64,000 nt of DNA from contig NZ_AQOV01000002.1 of NCBI RefSeq assembly GCF_000365425.1, positions 310,001 through 374,000 on the forward strand. Direction: 5' to 3'. Position 1 is the first letter of the stretch. Each line of letters opens with the position of its first letter. Position numbers and translations under genes: made by a program. The DNA comes from Methylomonas sp. MK1. Its GTDB lineage: Bacteria > Pseudomonadota > Gammaproteobacteria > Methylococcales > Methylomonadaceae. Shown here in pieces: positions 30,315 through 38,893 of the stretch. The notes under the pieces were generated by a model, which was not told the origin of the DNA, ran no database searches, and saw only the letters and a program-made list of their open reading frames with translations.

Positions 30315-30623
30315 ATGCGGTTATCACAATCTCAAGCCCAAACAATACGTGAAAGCGTCTTAAGCAACTTCGGTGAAGATGCTCATGTGTGGTTGTTCGG
30401 CTCAAGAGCCCGGGATGACGAAAAAGGTGGCGACATCGATCTTTATATTGAGGTCCAAGCGCAATCGGCAGCGGACTTGATCAATAGTAAGTTGAAATTT
30501 CTACGTGATTTACACAAAAGGCTCGGGGATCAAAAAATCGACGTCGTGTTGCGTAAGGCCAATGGCTCGGTTGACTTACCTATTTATCAAATTGCTAAAC
30601 AGACCGGGATTAAGTTGCAATGA
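30315..30623 (+). CDS. MNT-type nucleotidyltransferase antitoxin
   Basis: The 102-residue protein is a minimal nucleotidyltransferase with the pattern GSRARDDEKGGDIDLYIE, matching GSx10DxD. In the MntA/HepT systems the enzyme adds AMP to a tyrosine of the HEPN toxin to silence it. The second catalytic Asp is in KIDVVLRK. The HEPN gene overlaps its stop as ATGA (30620-30623), so production of the two is coupled. Confidence 0.88.
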   Translation: MRLSQSQAQTIRESVLSNFGEDAHVWLFGSRARDDEKGGDIDLYIEVQAQSAADLINSKLKFLRDLHKRLGDQKIDVVLRKANGSVDLPIYQIAKQTGIKLQ

Positions 30624-31078
30624 TTACAGCCATACAAGAGATACTAAAAATCTGTGACCGTCATGCCGATAGGTTGCGGTGGGCTGTAAGTCAACTGCAA
30701 TGCCATGCCCCATTTGACGAACACGGTTTAAGTCGTTTGACCGATACTGAGATTGCCGTTTTGGATCAGTTTTCTGTCCGATTTGGGAAATTGCAGGATG
30801 CAATGGGCGCCAAGCTGTTCCCGGCGGTGTTAGAGCTGACAAAAGAACCGGGGGAATTAAAAGCTTTTATTGATAAGCTGAATCGCCTTGAAAAAATTGG
30901 TGCGATTCCATCAGCGGATGATTGGTTGTTGCTGCGTGAAGTCAGAAACACCTTTGCACATGATTACCCTGATGATCCTGAACTCAAAGCAGAAATCATC
31001 AATAAGGCGCTTGATCTAACAGCTTCCCTTCTTGATGTGTTGGATTCTGTAAAACGTTTCGTCCAACCTTATTTGTAG
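30620..31078 (+). CDS. HEPN/HepT-like toxin
   Basis: The 152-residue all-helical protein has the HEPN ribonuclease motif RNTFAH (in LREVRNTFAHDYPDD near residues 108-122). It partners the overlapping MNT gene. It is longer than typical HepT (about 115-140) and lacks the usual RxxxxHxY tyrosine spacing; DYP lies just after the histidine and may carry the AMP acceptor. It could be an RNase toxin or an abortive-infection unit. hsdM starts 56 bases later. Confidence 0.8.
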   Translation: MITAIQEILKICDRHADRLRWAVSQLQCHAPFDEHGLSRLTDTEIAVLDQFSVRFGKLQDAMGAKLFPAVLELTKEPGELKAFIDKLNRLEKIGAIPSADDWLLLREVRNTFAHDYPDDPELKAEIINKALDLTASLLDVLDSVKRFVQPYL

Positions 31079-31134
31079 TGATTGGTAAACACCGATAACC
31101 CCCACAAGACGCCAGAAATAATTTAAAAAACCTA

Positions 31135-32925
31135 ATGCCTATGGTCAACATCGACGAACAACAGTTTTTAAACAACCTCGATAAAAAACTCTGGACCAGC
31201 GCCGACAAACTGCGCTCCACCCTGGACGCCTCGCAATACAAACACACGGTACTCGGCTTAATCTTTTTAAAATACGTCAGCGACTCGTTTGACATTCGGC
31301 GCCAAGAGCTAACGGAGCAATTTAAAAACCCTGGCCACGAATACTACCTAGACCCCGCCGACTTTGGCGGCGAGGACAGCGCCGACTACCAAGCTGAAAT
31401 CAACACCGAACTGGAACAACGCGACTACTACGCCGAAACCAATGTATTTTGGGTGCCGAAAGTAGCGCGCTGGGAGTTTTTGCAAAATCAGAACAAAGTC
31501 GTCATTAACAGCGTCATTTGGCTGACTAAAGCCGGTGACGTACTGACCCAAGCGCCGGCAGATGACACCGAAAAACGCCTTTGCACCCGCATCAGCTCGG
31601 TCGGGCAGTTAATCGACCACGCGCTGGAAGCCATCGAACACGACAACGCCAAACTCAAAGGCATCCTCAACAAACGCTATACCAGCCTGCAAATCGATCC
31701 TGCCAAACTGGGCGAGCTGATTGACCTGATCGCCACCATCCCCTTCAAGCATGCCAGCCTCAGCAGCAAAGACATTCTCGGCCATGTTTACGAATACTTT
31801 CTCGGCCAATTTGCCTTGGCCGAAGGCAAGAAAGGCGGGCAGTTTTACACGCCAAAATCCATCGTCAGCTTGATCGTGCAAATGCTGGAACCGTTTAAAG
31901 GCCGCGTCTACGATCCGGCGATGGGCAGCGGCGGCTTTTTTGTACAATCGGAAAACTTTATCCGCGAGCATCAAGGCCGTATTGGCGATGTGTCGATTTA
32001 CGGCCAGGAATACAACCACACCACTTGGCAGTTGGCCGCCATGAACATGGTGATACGTGGCATCGACTTTAACTTTGGCAAAGAACCCGCCAACACCTAC
32101 ACCAACGACCAACACCCCGATTTACGCGCCGACTTTGTGATGGCTAATCCTCCGTTCAATATGCGCGAGTGGGATACCGGTGTCAGTGACGACGACCCGC
32201 GCTGGGTATATGGCAAACCGCCCAGCGGCAACGCCAACTTCGCCTGGCTGCAACACATGCTTTACCACCTGGCGCCCAACGGCAGCATGGGTTTGCTGCT
32301 CGCCAACGGCTCCATGAGCTCCAACACCAATAACGAAGGTGAAATCCGCAAAGCGCTGATCGAAAATGACTTGGTGGAATGCATGGTCGCCTTGCCCGGC
32401 CAGTTGTTCACCAATACCCAAATCCCCGCCTGCATCTGGTTTTTAACCAAAAACAAAGGTCCACGCACCTCCGCCAGTGGCAAAACCTTACGCGATCGCA
32501 AAGGCGAAATCCTGTTTATCGACGCCCGCAATCTGGGCTACATGAAAGACCGCGTATTGCGCGACTTTACGCAGGACGATTTAAACAAAGTCACCGAGAC
32601 CTTTTATTGTTGGCAAACCGTAGGTTGGGGTGAGGAACGAACCCCAACGAATGCCGAAGCCGATGTTGGGGTTCCTAACGTCACCCCAACCTACGCCGAC
32701 ATCCCCGCATTTTGTAAATCTGCCACCCTGGCCGATATTCAAAAACACGACTATGTCCTTACCCCAGGCCGTTATGTTGGCGCAGCCGATGCCGTGGACG
32801 ATGGCGAAGCCTTTGCCGACAAAATGGTACGCTTGACCGCACAGCTGAAAAGCCAGTTTGAACAGAGTGACAAGTTGGAAGCCGAGATTAAAAAGAACTT
32901 GGCGGGGTTGGGTTATGAGTGTTGA
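31135..32925 (+). CDS. hsdM: type I restriction-modification DNA methyltransferase subunit HsdM
   Basis: HsdM methylates adenine N6 in the sequence recognised by HsdS and is needed for both modification and restriction. The 596-residue protein has the N-terminal helical domain (TLDASQYKHTVLGLIFLKYV), the SAM motif DPAMGSGGFFVQS, and the catalytic NPPF motif (FVMANPPFNMREWD). Residues about 496-520 are encoded by a palindromic repeat (see 32620-32694) that homologues lack, between FYCWQ and YADIP. Otherwise the sequence is complete, ending ELEAEIKKNLAGLGYEC-like. An ATG at 31141 is an alternative start. It heads the hsdM-hsdS-ATPase-hsdR operon. Confidence 0.95.
   Translation: MPMVNIDEQQFLNNLDKKLWTSADKLRSTLDASQYKHTVLGLIFLKYVSDSFDIRRQELTEQFKNPGHEYYLDPADFGGEDSADYQAEINTELEQRDYYAETNVFWVPKVARWEFLQNQNKVVINSVIWLTKAGDVLTQAPADDTEKRLCTRISSVGQLIDHALEAIEHDNAKLKGILNKRYTSLQIDPAKLGELIDLIATIPFKHASLSSKDILGHVYEYFLGQFALAEGKKGGQFYTPKSIVSLIVQMLEPFKGRVYDPAMGSGGFFVQSENFIREHQGRIGDVSIYGQEYNHTTWQLAAMNMVIRGIDFNFGKEPANTYTNDQHPDLRADFVMANPPFNMREWDTGVSDDDPRWVYGKPPSGNANFAWLQHMLYHLAPNGSMGLLLANGSMSSNTNNEGEIRKALIENDLVECMVALPGQLFTNTQIPACIWFLTKNKGPRTSASGKTLRDRKGEILFIDARNLGYMKDRVLRDFTQDDLNKVTETFYCWQTVGWGEERTPTNAEADVGVPNVTPTYADIPAFCKSATLADIQKHDYVLTPGRYVGAADAVDDGEAFADKMVRLTAQLKSQFEQSDKLEAEIKKNLAGLGYEC
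32620..32694 (+). repeat. palindromic repeat inserted in frame in hsdM
   Basis: GTAGGTTGGGGTGAGGAACG (32620-32639, arm ends CCCCAAC at 32648) is mirrored by an arm at 32665-32694 ending CACCCCAACCTAC. Over about 30 bases the arms differ only at an inner segment of a few bases, and each arm can fold on itself (GTTGGGGT/ACCCCAAC). The unit is 75 bases, a multiple of three, and has no stop in frame. It resembles REP-like elements. Confidence 0.75.
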
Positions 32926-34333
32926 TGGTTGGAAAAATGCAACTATTGAATCTTTAATAGCTGATGGAGTTATTATTACCCACAAAGATGGAAATCACGG
33001 TTCTAATTATCCTAGAGCATCAGAGTTTGGTAAGAGAGGTGTGCCTTTTATTACAGCTAAATTATTAGATGATTCCGGGAATATTGATATTGAAAACGCT
33101 CCTAGATTAAATAATAACAAAGCAAGTAAATTTACTTTTGGTTTCATTCAGGCCGATGATGTCTTACTGTCTCATAATGCAACGGTAGGAAGAGTTGCTG
33201 TGGTGCCAATGCTAAACGAACGAGTGTTAATAGGTACATCTTTGACTCTATATAGATTAGATATAACGAGATTATTGCCTAAGTACCTTGCCGCTTATTT
33301 TTCTGGTCGCGAATTTCAAAATCAACTTGCATCCGTGATGAGTCAAACGACTAGAAATCAGGTTCCAATCACTTCGCAAAGAAAATTATCTATAGTTATT
33401 CCGCCTTTAAATGAACAGGAAAAGGTTGCGGATATATTAGAGTCTTTTGATAAAAAAATAGAACTCAACCGCCAAACCAACCAAACCCTAGAACAAATCG
33501 CCCAAGCCATTTTTAAAAGCTGGTTTGTCGATTTTGAGCCGGTGAAAGCCAAAATGGCCGCCAAACAAGCAGGCGCAACTGCCGAGCAAATAGAACAAGC
33601 CGCCATCTGCACCATCAGCGGCAAAACCCCGGAACAACTCGCCCAACTCGACCCGCAAACCCTAAAACAACTCAAAACCACCGCCGCCTTATTCCCCGAT
33701 GCCTTGGTGGATTCTGAGCTGGGGGAAATGCCGGAGGGGTGGGAAGCGAAGCCTTTAGGTAATTACTTAGAAATAAAGCGGGGTGGCTCACCAAGGCCAA
33801 TAAATGAATACATGGTTGAAAAAGGATTGCCATGGACAAAAATTGCCGATGCTACAGCTGAACCTAGTCCCTTTCTGTTTCGTACGAAAGAGTTTATTAA
33901 AGAAGAAGGTTTGAAAAAGACAGTTCTATTAAAAAAAGGTACTTTGATTTTAACTAATAGCGCGACACCAGGGTTGCCAAAGTTTCTCGAGTTAGATGCA
34001 TGTATTCATGACGGGTGGCTCCATTTTCCAAATAAGAAATTATTTACTGATAATTACTTATATCAGCTTTTTTTAGATATTAGAAAAGCACTTATTGCCC
34101 AAGGTAATGGAAGTGTATTTACAAATTTAAAAACAGACATACTCCGAAATCAGGTTGTTGTCGTGCCTCCTCAAGATTTAATAATTAAATTTGAAGATAC
34201 TATCCAATTGATTTTTATGCAGCTAAAAGAGAATTGCAAAGAAATTAATGTGCTTACTGAATTAAGGGATTCCCTACTCCCCAAACTCCTCTCCGGCGAA
34301 ATCACCCTTGCAAATCAAGATGAGGCGTCATAA
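32915..34333 (+). CDS. hsdS: type I restriction-modification specificity subunit HsdS
   Basis: HsdS sets the DNA sequence recognised by the complex. The 472-residue protein has two target-recognition domains (about residues 5-170 and 280-445), each followed by a conserved coiled-coil spacer (first: LNEQEKVADILESFDKKIEL; last: ELRDSLLPKLLSGEITL). The coding DNA of both recognition domains is clearly AT-richer than that of the central spacer (33470-33730) and of hsdM/hsdR, which fits shuffling of recognition domains. The ATG at 32915 overlaps the hsdM stop by 11 bases. Confidence 0.92.
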   Translation: MSVDGWKNATIESLIADGVIITHKDGNHGSNYPRASEFGKRGVPFITAKLLDDSGNIDIENAPRLNNNKASKFTFGFIQADDVLLSHNATVGRVAVVPMLNERVLIGTSLTLYRLDITRLLPKYLAAYFSGREFQNQLASVMSQTTRNQVPITSQRKLSIVIPPLNEQEKVADILESFDKKIELNRQTNQTLEQIAQAIFKSWFVDFEPVKAKMAAKQAGATAEQIEQAAICTISGKTPEQLAQLDPQTLKQLKTTAALFPDALVDSELGEMPEGWEAKPLGNYLEIKRGGSPRPINEYMVEKGLPWTKIADATAEPSPFLFRTKEFIKEEGLKKTVLLKKGTLILTNSATPGLPKFLELDACIHDGWLHFPNKKLFTDNYLYQLFLDIRKALIAQGNGSVFTNLKTDILRNQVVVVPPQDLIIKFEDTIQLIFMQLKENCKEINVLTELRDSLLPKLLSGEITLANQDEAS

Positions 34334-34380
34334 TCCCTAACGGTTGTTCAGGCTTGGTCGCGCTATTTTCAAGTGGTAAT

Positions 34381-34462
34381 CTACAATTGGACGCTGACTT
34401 AACCAGCAATTGGACGGCGTTTAAACCTACAATTGGACGGTGACTTAACCAGCAATTGGACG
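34381..34462 (+). repeat. two tandem 46-base repeats between hsdS and ATPase gene
   Basis: CTACAATTGGACGCTGACTT begins a 46-base unit at 34381-34426 that is repeated almost exactly from 34427. Each copy holds two CAATTGGACG motifs separated by about 15 bases, so four occur in about 80 bases. The array ends about 40 bases before the ATPase start and may be an operator or promoter region, or a slipped repeat. Confidence 0.7.
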
Positions 34463-34499
34463 GTAAAATAGGCCGGAATGATTGGCACTGGGAGCGGTT

Positions 34500-35738
34500 G
34501 TGGCGGAACAGAGTGTGTATGTGCGGCATATGATGCCTGTGTTGCAGGCGGCGCTGGCCGATACGCCGGTGGTGTGTTTGTTGGGGCCCAGGCAGGTGGG
34601 TAAAACCACGCTGGCACAGCAGGTAGCGCCCAGTACGCCTTATATTAGTTTTGACGACCCGAATTTGGTCACGGTGGCGCAACAGGATCCGGTGGGTTTT
34701 GTGGCGGGCTTGCCTGCATCGGTGGTGCTGGATGAAGTACAGCGGGTGCCTGGGTTGTTTACGGCCATTAAAGCATCGGTCGATAAAGACCGGACGCCGG
34801 GGCGATTTTTATTGACCGGTTCGGCCAATTTATTATTGTTGCCCAAGGTACAAGAGTCGCTGGCGGGGCGCATGGAGATTGTGCTGTTGCAGCCCTTGTC
34901 GGAAATGGAAAAGCAGGGCGGCCACTATTGCTTGTTACAAGCGCTATTAGACGGCAGTATTAAAACAGAGATTAGCGGTGAGCAAACCGTGGTGCCAGGG
35001 TTGGCCGAGGCTGTTTGCAGCGGTGGCTACCCGGAACCGTTGCGGCGCAATCCCGCTCGAGCCCGGCAGTGGTACAGGCAGTATCTAAACGCGATTATGC
35101 AGCGCGACGTTAACGATATTACGGCGATTAAATCTACCGATGATCTGGCCAAATTGATGGCTTTGTTGGCGTATCGCACGGCCAATTTGTTGAATGTCAG
35201 CGGCTTGTCCAACGAATTGGACATCAACCGCGAAACGGTAGAAAAGTATTTGGGTATTTTGGAACGTTTGTTTTTAGTGCGGCGTTTGCCTGCCTGGCAT
35301 CGCAATGACGCTAAACGTTTAATTAAAACCCCCAAGATCCATGTCGTCGATTCCGGATTGGCGGCGGTGTTACATCGTTTGGCAATGGAAGATTGGTCGT
35401 TTCAAAGTACTGAGTTTGGCGGGCTGCTGGAGAGTTTTGTGGTGCAGCAGTTTATTTGCCAGGCGGGTTGGGTCGATAGCGATTTAAAGTTTTCGCATTA
35501 TCGCGATAAAGATCAGGTTGAAGTGGATTTGGTGATTGAGCGCGGGCGCGAGGTGTGGGCGGTTGAGGTAAAGCGCGCCAGTAGCTTTAATGAAAATGAT
35601 GGTGCCGGTTTGGCCAGGCTGGCCTTACAGGCAGGCGAACAGTTTAAGGGGGGGATTTTGTTGTATTCAGGAAGTAATTGTTTGCCCATGAAGCAGGCCA
35701 ACTGCTTTGCCGTGCCTATGGACAGGTTATGGTCATGA
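34500..35738 (+). CDS. AAA ATPase with DUF4143 domain, inside type I R-M operon
   Basis: The 412-residue protein has an N-terminal AAA_14-type ATPase (Walker [17 protein letters not shown], Walker [14 protein letters not shown], sensor [12 protein letters not shown]). A C-terminal DUF4143 half follows, with [17 protein letters not shown] and [10 protein letters not shown], a pattern like the PD-(D/E)xK nuclease fold (D...ExK). The GTG at 34500 has GGAG upstream; the ATG at 34530 is possible. Its end overlaps the hsdR start, so it is coupled to restriction. Its job in a type I system is not established. Confidence 0.85.
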
Positions 35739-38700
35739 TCAGCGAAGACCAACTGGAACAGCTTTGCCTCGATTGGTTTCAATCCATTGGCTATAGCTAC
35801 GCCAATGGTTATGACATTGCGCCCGATGCTGAGCATCCAGAACGGGTCGATTACCGGCAAGTAGAGTTATTTGACCGTTTACTGAGTCAACTGCAAAAAA
35901 TCAACCCGCATATTCCGCTCGATGTACTGGAGCGCGTCTCCCAGCAAATCGCCAAACCGGAATCGCCGGTGTTAATCAAAAGCAACCATGTGTTTCATCG
36001 CCTGTTATTAGAGGGCGTGAAAGTTGATTTTAAAATCGACGGCGAAGAGAAAACCGATTACGTGGCATTGCTGGATTTTGCCACGGTCAGCAATAACCAG
36101 TTTTTGGTGGTGAATCAATACACGATTGCAGGCAGCAAGGGCCATCGCCGCCCGGATGTGGTGGTGTTTGTGAATGGCTTGCCGTTGGCGGTGCTGGAGC
36201 TGAAAAATCCGGTAGACCTTAACGCCGATATTTGGGCGGCATATCAGCAGTTGCAAACTTATAAGGATGAAATTAGCGATTTATTCATCTTTAACGCGGC
36301 ACTGGTCGTTAGCGATGGTTTGCATGCGCGGGTGGGGTCGCTGACCGCCAATAAAGAGCGGTTTTTGCCGTGGCGCACACTGGCAAATGAAGACGACAAG
36401 CCGCTGTTTGAATATCGTTTGGAAACCTTGGTGAAGGGCTTTTTTCAGCCGGAATTGTTTTTAGATTATCTGCATTACTTTATTTTGTTTGAGCAGGACG
36501 ACGGCCAATTGATTAAAAAGATTGCCGGTTATCATCAGTTTCATGCTGTGCGCGAGGCGGTAAAAGCCACGGTCATAGCTGCGCAGCAGATAGACGACCG
36601 TTCAGCCGAGCCCCGCGCGGATTATGCACAGCGGGTGGTGCCGGGTTCTGGGAAAGCGGGAGTGGTGTGGCATACCCAGGGTTCGGGCAAGTCGATTTCG
36701 ATGGTGTGTTATGCCAGTAAATTATTGGCGCAGCCGGAAATGAATAATCCCACCATCGTGGTAGTGACCGATAGAAACGATTTGGACGGCCAGCTGTTTA
36801 ATACCTTCAGCATGGCAGTCGAAACGTTGAAACAAACCCCGGTGCAGGCCGGTGATCGTGATGATTTGCGCGAGATGTTGGCCGCACGCCAAGCGGGTGG
36901 GATTATTTTTACCACCATCCAAAAGTTTGCCTTGCTGGCCGATGAAACCAGTCATCCGGTATTAAGCAATCGCCACAATATCGTGGTGATTAGCGATGAA
37001 GCGCACCGCAGCCAATATGGCGATAAAGCCAAGCTAAATGCCAAAGGCCAATATACCTTTGGTTATTCCAAGCATTTGCGCGATGCCTTGCCCAGCGCCA
37101 GTTTTATCGGCTTTACCGGTACACCGATTGCCGCGCAAGATAAAGATACGCGCGCGGTGTTTGGCGATTATGTGTCGATTTACGATATTCAAGACGCGGT
37201 GGATGATGGCGCGACGGTGCCGATTTATTATGAATCGCGCCTGGCCAAGCTGGACATCAACACGGCAGACATCGAAGCCTTGAATGCGGAAGTGGACGAA
37301 GTCATCGAGGATGAAGAAGACATCGCCAGCCGCGAAAATACCAAATCTAAATGGGCGGCCTTGGAAAAGCTGGTGGGGAGTGCGCCGCGCGTGGAGCAGG
37401 TGGCTAAGGATTTGGTGTGTCATTTTGCAACCCGCGTTGCCAGTATGCCCGGCAAGGCCATGATTGTGTGCATGAGCCGGGATATTTGCGTGGAGCTGTA
37501 TAACGCCATTGTGGCGCTTAAGCCCGAATGGCACGATGCCGACCCCAACAAGGGGGCGATCAAAATTGTGATGACCGGTTCGGCCTCTGACCATGCCAAG
37601 CTTCAGGCGCATATTTACAGCAAAACCACTAAAAAGCTGTTTGAAAAGCGATTTAAAGACAGTAACGACCCGCTGCAATTGGTGATTGTGCGCGATATGT
37701 GGCTGACGGGTTTTGATGCGCCGTGTTGCCATACCATGTATATCGACAAGCCGATGAAAGGCCACAACCTGATGCAAGCCATTGCACGGGTGAATCGGGT
37801 GTTTAAAGACAAGCCCGGCGGCTTGGTGGTGGACTATATCGGCATTGCCAGCGAGCTGAAGCAGGCGCTGAAAACCTACACCGATTCCAAAGGCAAAGGC
37901 GCACCCACGCTGGATACCCATGAGGCCTATGCACTGCTACTCGAAAAACTGGATATAGTGCATGGCATGATGCAGGGCTTTGATTACAGTGCCTTTGCCA
38001 CCCAGGCTTTGCAGTTATTGCCGGGCGCGATGAATCATATTTTGAGTTTGCAAGGCAGTAATGGTGAGTTAGACGGTAAAAAGCGTTTTTTCGAGGTAAT
38101 GACCTTATTAGTCAAAGCGTATAGCTTATGCAGCACGCTGGATGAAGTCGCCCCGCTTAAAATGGAAATTGCCTTTTTAAGCGCGGTGAAAGCCTCGTTA
38201 ACTAAAAACACCACAGTGGATAAACGCTTAAGTGATGAAGAGAAAAACTCGGCGCTAAAGCAGATCATTGATAACGCGATTGTCGCCGATGGCGTTGATG
38301 ATATTTTTAGCTTGGTGGGTTTGGACAAGCCCAATATTGGCTTGCTGTCGCCAGAATTTATGGATGATGTCGCCCAACTGAAGGAAAAAAATCTGGCGGT
38401 GGATTTGCTGGAACGTTTGCTGCGCGATGAAGTGAACGCGCGGATGAAAACCGATGTAGTATCCGAGAAAAAATACTCTGAGCGCATTCTGGAGTCTTTG
38501 CGCAAATACCACAACCGCGCCATCGAAACCGCTCAGGTAATTGAAGAGCTGATTGCGATTGCCAAAGACATGCAGGCGGATTTGGCGCAAGCGGAAAAAC
38601 TGGGTTTAAATCCGGACGAAATCGCCTTTTACCGGGCCTTGATTCAAAATGAATCGGCCGTGCGGGAATTGGGTGATAACAACCTGCGCGAACTGGCGAA

Positions 38701-38893
38701 ATATATTACTGAGCAATTACGCAATAGCACGACGGTCGATTGGGCCAAACGCGATAGCGTGCGGGCCCGATTGCGGAATCTGGTCAGAAGGGCTTTGCGG
38801 CGCTGGAAGTATCCACCCGATAAAGCCGACGAAGCGGTTGAGTTGTGTCTAAAGCAAGCCGAGGTACTCAGTGAGGCTTGGAGTGTGGGCTAA
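35735..38893 (+). CDS. hsdR: type I restriction enzyme endonuclease subunit HsdR
   Basis: HsdR cleaves unmodified DNA after ATP-driven translocation. The 1052-residue protein has an N-terminal nuclease domain ([18 protein letters not shown], the D...ExK core), helicase motifs I ([12 protein letters not shown]), II ([13 protein letters not shown]), III (FIGFTGTP), and later [21 protein letters not shown] (motif VI), with a C-terminal helical HsdM-binding part. The ATG at 35735 forms ATGA with the ATPase stop; one at 35729 is also possible. No frameshift is seen, so the system looks complete. Confidence 0.95.

Follow-up and report, generated by a model that had tools for sequence, protein, structure and literature searches.

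In-frame palindromes are already in print for two kinds of repeat, the Rickettsia palindromic elements (RPEs) and the GTAG REPs. According to the main text of Di Nocera 2013 (PMC3733652), dimers or groups of GTAG REPs can encode 20-30 residues inside open reading frames (ORFs). Passages on GTAG REPs and REPINs (PMC3733652, PMC3116915) describe a GTAG tail beside a hairpin, head-to-head units, and dispersed copies. RPEs lie in frame in conserved enzyme genes, and in one such case, as part of PMC2229807 relates, a guanylate kinase carrying an RPE is active with an altered substrate affinity. REPs of subclass 2.4 can enter a gene without breaking its frame, although in the passages of PMC6006769 that describe them the host is the tnpAREP transposase gene itself.

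The locus considered here lies in a 64,000-nt stretch of the Methylomonas sp. MK1 genome (the window), where hsdM, encoding the methyltransferase subunit of a type I restriction-modification (RM) system, carries a REP dimer in frame and, judged from its sequence, looks like a working gene (Table 1). The names RPE, REPIN, RAYT and IS608 are applied here in their usual sense. The GTAG tail beside the hairpin, the head-to-head unit and the dispersed copies are shared with the described GTAG REPs and REPINs. However, compared with what those sources present, the copy number is very low, no cognate RAYT was found in the own genome, and the host gene is hsdM; the terms "hsd" and "methyltransferase" are absent from the main text of PMC3733652, whose Additional file 3, on interrupted ORFs, may include hsdM. 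Likeness to RPEs extends to the presence of a palindromic repeat in a conserved enzyme gene, but repeat family and host differ (a GTAG-REP type and Methylomonas rather than an RPE sequence and Rickettsia), and here several families use one loop of one protein. A literature search, judged by title, returned nothing on hsdM inserts, on DUF559 with hsdM, or on DUF559 with repeats. Three features were not found in print: that many families have refilled a single HsdM loop, that the REP joins at a Tyr codon, and that a DUF559 domain is bracketed by palindromes.

Table 1. Positions of the hsdM palindrome, the RM genes around it and the further dimers of the genome (window numbering unless a contig, C2, is given)
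Feature	Position	Strand	Basis
hsdM, type I RM methyltransferase subunit, 596 aa, intact	31135..32925	+	ORF, Pfam, dN/dS
Inverted repeat, perfect 15-nt arms 32619-32633 / 32681-32695	32619..32695	.	arm search, fold z -6.87
Left REP, GTAG tail and 8-bp hairpin	32620..32649	+	arm fold, sequence
Spacer separating both REPs	32650..32663	.	sequence
Inverted right REP ending in CTAC, making the dimer head-to-head	32664..32694	-	sequence, arms, fold
TAC codon common to REP end and conserved HsdM Tyr	32692..32694	+	junction comparison
hsdS, specificity subunit	32915..34333	+	ORF, Pfam Methylase_S
hsdR, restriction subunit, downstream	35678..38893	+	ORF; HSDR_N, SWI2_SNF2, T1RH-like_C
Further dimer	C2:288500-288636		genome pattern search
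Further dimer, single arm near	C2:1387902-1388038		genome pattern search

The HsdM protein belongs to a type I RM system: it matches N6_Mtase (2e-107) and HsdM_N (2.6e-19) in Pfam, and hsdS and hsdR adjoin it. The end of hsdM overlaps the start of hsdS by 11 nt, and the hsdM frame stays open across the palindrome. Outside the loop that holds the palindrome, dN/dS is 0.043-0.052 between the hsdM of the window and those of three congeners, and 0.043-0.074 over all six pairs among these four genes. Thus, the hsdM core is under purifying selection and the genes are kept; the intact ORF and the low dN/dS together rule out a pseudogene. An AAA_14/DUF4143 ATPase gene lies between hsdS and hsdR (window 34482-35738). 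Upstream (5') of hsdM, at 30315-31078, are a gene for a nucleotidyltransferase-domain protein and a 152-aa partner with no Pfam match, an arrangement that is toxin-antitoxin like.

The palindrome itself is a 75-nt unit (32620-32694, GTAG...CTAC) whose perfect arms are 47 nt apart. None of 200 shuffles folds as well as the unit does as DNA (z = -6.87), and arms of at least 15 nt occur in 0/1500 random 77-mers from the window (the longest is 14), which rules out a chance palindrome. A known RNA family was also considered and set aside, since an Rfam scan of 31000-34500 gave no match up to E 0.1. The unit is a GTAG-tagged, REPIN-like REP dimer. Just one of the three frames in each orientation is free of stops, and the coding frame is that one. 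The first-pass annotation, which had described a REP-like palindrome of two mirrored hairpin arms turned coding within hsdM, was right on these points. It had also counted 25 added residues without a stop or frameshift; the open frame stands, but in net terms the loop gains about 18-21, because the final TAC doubles as the Tyr of the YxDxxGFC motif and the common short loops already have 4-7 residues. As an overall reading, the coding palindrome holds, but it is neither the first case nor a one-off.

Copies of the unit in this genome are few: three head-to-head dimers including that in hsdM, and a single arm. The sequence GTAGGTTGGGGTGA is found at four places (hsdM, C2:288501, 1387903 and 1388161), with a related arm at C1:15083. 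Both other dimers and the single arm lie outside ORFs of at least 150 aa, the dimer at 1387902-1388038 being overlapped by a 113-aa open frame. The pattern GTAGGTTGGGBTGA detects four forward and four reverse arms in this genome and has matches in 23/37 genomes of the genus. In both arms GTAG adjoins a palindromic stem-loop, and copies are dispersed, at low number, as in GTAG REPs; as in REPINs, two inverted REPs form one unit, both within hsdM and in the two further dimers. A RAYT flanked by the same REP was not seen, as none of 10 Y1_Tnp loci (own genome, fetched DNA) holds GTAGG[GTC][TC]?GGG. The RAYT-like genes L189 (G000:C1:3002646) and L187 (G000:C1:284099) have inverted palindromes on their flanks, but these belong to other types. 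The palindrome type of one RAYT-like gene, GTTCCCACG, resembles an hsdM filling described below (L042).

Among homologues, the loop was measured as the gap that separates a conserved W[QRK] from the conserved Tyr, which could be done for 133 loci (105/110 plus 28/29 that were readable, the window's own counted; a few genomes probably appear twice, as in L019/L062 and L047/L219). It does not exceed 12 residues (4-12) in 93/133 loci and is longer in the other 40, amounting to 37-200 bp in 32 of them and to more than 300 bp in 8. The extra residues are therefore missing from most homologues and are not native to the HsdM family; filled loops in many bacteria likewise rule out a single event in this strain. 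Gap length is a multiple of three in 131/133 loci, and both exceptions carry DUF559. Two of the gaps above 300 bp are of a different kind: L039, a distant HsdM, seems to have an additional region there by nature, and the length in L057 comes from an insertion at a second loop.

The fillings are recurrent and different. GTAG REPs of several kinds occupy the loop in L012-L014, L020, L021, L031, L063 and L096; CCCTCTCCC...GGGAGAGGG palindromes and their variants in L015, L028, L054 and others; CATTCC[CG]GC palindromes in L057, L060, L096 and L100; and a GTTCCCACG...CGTGGGAAC palindrome in L042. The homologues were also searched for the same residues without inverted symmetry outside this lineage, a pattern that was not seen: L020, from another family of the same order, shares both the arm residues and their inverted symmetry but differs in the middle, and other homologues have different palindromes or a short loop. 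The perfect inverted arms of the 32 inserts measuring 37-200 bp were compared with two controls: in 17 inserts they are longer than in 95% of 60 shuffles, and in 13 longer than in 95% of segments from the same gene. Since 15/32 by the first control and 19/32 by the second lack significant symmetry, drift or the decay of elements may explain part of the loop growth.

The best 120 proteins among the matches listed, a set biased towards near relatives, give 119 readable loops, of which 92 are long or contain a repeat peptide, the peptide classes being patterns defined for this analysis. A FastTree phylogeny of these classes requires at least 94 class changes and at least 32 changes between short and insert, counts that have no shuffled control and serve as a hint only. 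Insertions of at least 10 aa in the proteins of 127 loci fall at this loop in 27 cases, at the second loop, before a "DAR" motif, in 5, and elsewhere in HsdM in 24 (counted by length), with 12 of the latter between reference positions 94 and 131. The loop is presumably flexible; structure models are of low confidence (mean pLDDT 59 and 51).

Probably, then, a REP dimer has inserted in a permissive HsdM loop, which acts as a "landing pad" that keeps stop-free, frame-preserving insertions. The dimer, a REPIN-like miniature mobile element that would move in the manner of RAYT-dependent REPs, would have entered between the methyltransferase domain and the C-terminal segment of HsdM. Because this loop would accept extra residues, unrelated small palindromic elements could arrive there repeatedly; inserts that are free of stops and keep the frame would survive, tolerated rather than beneficial, while the remainder of HsdM stays under purifying selection. 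One HsdM loop would thus sample many small bacterial palindromic elements in frame and, if this is borne out, could serve as a recorder of moving elements, of their joining sites, and of protein tolerance.

Pairs of HsdM with and without an insert can be close, with core identities of 96% (L031/L033), 94% (L060/L079) and 91% (L021/L025), although in L031/L033 native codons are missing from the filled copy, so that the insertion is not clean. Four congeneric HsdM of 94-96% identity have three different fillings: the short REP dimer in the window, a longer REP dimer in L013 and L014, and a CCCTCTCCC palindrome. The dimers of L012-L014 may share one insertion event. The insert common to L013 and L014, from two species, differs at 3 of 129 nt, compared with a median of 9 in other 129-nt windows of the gene, and is less diverged than every non-overlapping 129-nt window of hsdM. 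It is more alike than drift alone predicts, and it may be constrained, younger than the split of the two species, or exchanged. This unusual conservation makes the landing-pad explanation somewhat less probable, and two of its rivals more so.

According to the first of the rivals, the insert has been retained because it is beneficial, altering the HsdM surface (for example its contact with HsdS, HsdR or phage anti-restriction proteins), and turnover of inserts diversifies this surface. The L013/L014 insert, as the least diverged stretch of hsdM, fits such a role, as does the finding that close relatives differ in filling at one loop of a defence gene. However, the inserts are unrelated in sequence and 93/133 homologues do without one. 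Palindromes in other genes bear on this reading in both directions. Sixty regions were examined (59 for CCCTCTCCC palindromes among the matches listed, one for hsdM), and they contain 73 distinct CCCTCTCCC palindromes, 28 of them, in 25 ORFs, within frames open for at least 50 aa on both sides. Pfam domains are present in 16/20 scanned palindrome-bearing ORFs (a set that leaves out L266, L278, L282 and L292, and also hsdM, whose frame had been identified already). They include defence genes of the genus (a type ISP enzyme, Cas3, HsdS, and HsdR in three ORFs, two of which are the same gene in two genomes), consistent with a benefit; a SIR2 ORF has its palindrome near the frame start, perhaps outside the gene. 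But non-defence genes hold such palindromes as well, namely those for urease alpha, FecR, a P-type ATPase and ABC transporters, besides DNA polymerase III alpha, GGDEF and DUF1175 ORFs. Retention for a benefit is thus considered unlikely. The defence-gene loci of the genus with CCCTCTCCC in frame are L290:1633-3228, L264, L268, L271, L263, L255 and L304.

The right junction of the REP is common to different insertions. In all 8 loci with complete GTAG dimers, in which both GTAG and CCTAC were detected (L012-L014, L020, L021, L031, L063 and L096), the terminal TAC is the conserved Tyr codon. At least four HsdM lineages are represented; L021, L031 and L096 belong to lineages other than that of L012-L014 and have near relatives with short loops. 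In the protein set, 17/22 REP loops lead straight into the Tyr. Cleavage by E. coli TnpA-REP occurs at a CT adjoining the REP, and for another such enzyme also at CA, according to passages of PMC8266576. By analogy with the CT cleavage, it is plausible that REPs join at a CT/AC step within (C)TAC, which would place the right end of complete dimers on the Tyr codon. A site made "hot" by preferred target DNA (a CT/AC step in the Tyr codon, or the structure of the DNA there) more than by loop tolerance would account for the constant junction, and the short loops offer suitable targets, their Tyr codon being TAC in 53/95, with CTAC in 17. However, CCCTCTCCC, CATTCC[CG]GC and other families use the loop and not this junction, the second loop also receives inserts (L057), and two REP loci stop short of the Tyr codon end, L240 (GTAG seen by eye) by 13 nt and L090 (partial, with the CCTAC arm only) by 8 nt. 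Target preference as the main cause is therefore quite improbable. CCTAC is also found at the Tyr codon without a REP (L042, L054).

It is most doubtful that the hairpin acts in the mRNA, slowing ribosomes and so tuning how much HsdM is made relative to HsdS, whose gene overlaps hsdM. The predicted RNA stem of -49.9 kcal/mol, the 11-nt overlap and the nucleotide-level likeness of the L013/L014 insert would suit that role, but many homologues have a short loop or a filling that lacks long inverted arms, and the Rfam scan of 31000-34500 was empty.

Besides short palindromes, the HsdM loop holds DUF559 (PF04480) nuclease domains. Two of the 120 proteins among the matches listed (P0033 and P0051) combine PF04480 with HsdM domains in this loop. 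At the DNA level, DUF559 lies in frame within hsdM in L047/L219, in a broken hsdM in L019/L062 (L062 is Methylomonas sp. WSC-7; the filling is the same in both), out of frame in L034/L036, and at the second HsdM loop in L057. Wherever DNA was read, the hsdM-embedded DUF559 is flanked by CCCTCTCCC-type palindromes. The domain is present in 21/37 genomes of the genus and 87/276 of the class, and its flanks were compared in 51 loci (the best 58, with 7 weak ones left out). In 40/51 loci the inverted repeats score above the 99th (and 95th) percentile of 881 control ORFs, whose flanks were taken equally long, with a median of 22.0 versus 8.5; 11/51 are without such flanks. Pairing mismatched flanks across DUF559 loci gives a median of 10.5 and a 95th percentile of 27.0, which is high because many of these loci have the same palindrome. 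Against 600 random segments, 31/43 loci are above the 99th percentile (8 loci without a core were left out); with shorter control flanks and a control pool that includes DUF559 loci, 40/51 are above the 95th and 28/51 above the 99th. The bracketing palindromes vary by locus (L122-L149, L190-L218) and include CCCTCTCCC, CCCCCTTT and ATTCCCCTCC.

Exact CCCTCTCCC palindromes occur in 26/37 genomes of the genus, with 18 copies in this genome, and the reversed pattern gives none. Copies are commoner in the 17/37 genomes with a strong DUF559 match (Mann-Whitney p 0.0019), and also when the 31 more complete genomes alone are compared (p 0.0037), kinship being ignored in both tests. DUF559 is nevertheless absent from two genomes that have 14 and 16 copies, and present in two that have no copy. 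We tentatively propose that DUF559 nucleases serve the widespread CCCTCTCCC-type (and CCCCCTTT-type) palindromes as autonomous partners, in the way that RAYTs serve REPs. The two would then constitute a new small mobile element, with a full form, palindrome-nuclease-palindrome, and a short form, the palindrome alone; the HsdM loop would catch both in frame, in the former case giving an HsdM with an embedded nuclease domain. The DUF559 family, so often found between inverted palindromes, could thus mobilise a common repeat for which no such enzyme has been assigned. For RM biology, the prediction is that type I enzymes with segments encoded by mobile DNA, up to a whole nuclease domain, may still work. 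The REP arm GTAGGTTGGGGTGAG resembles GAGGGTTGGGGTGAG, the tail of the CCCTCTCCC palindrome, with 2/15 bases different, which may be coincidence or kinship.
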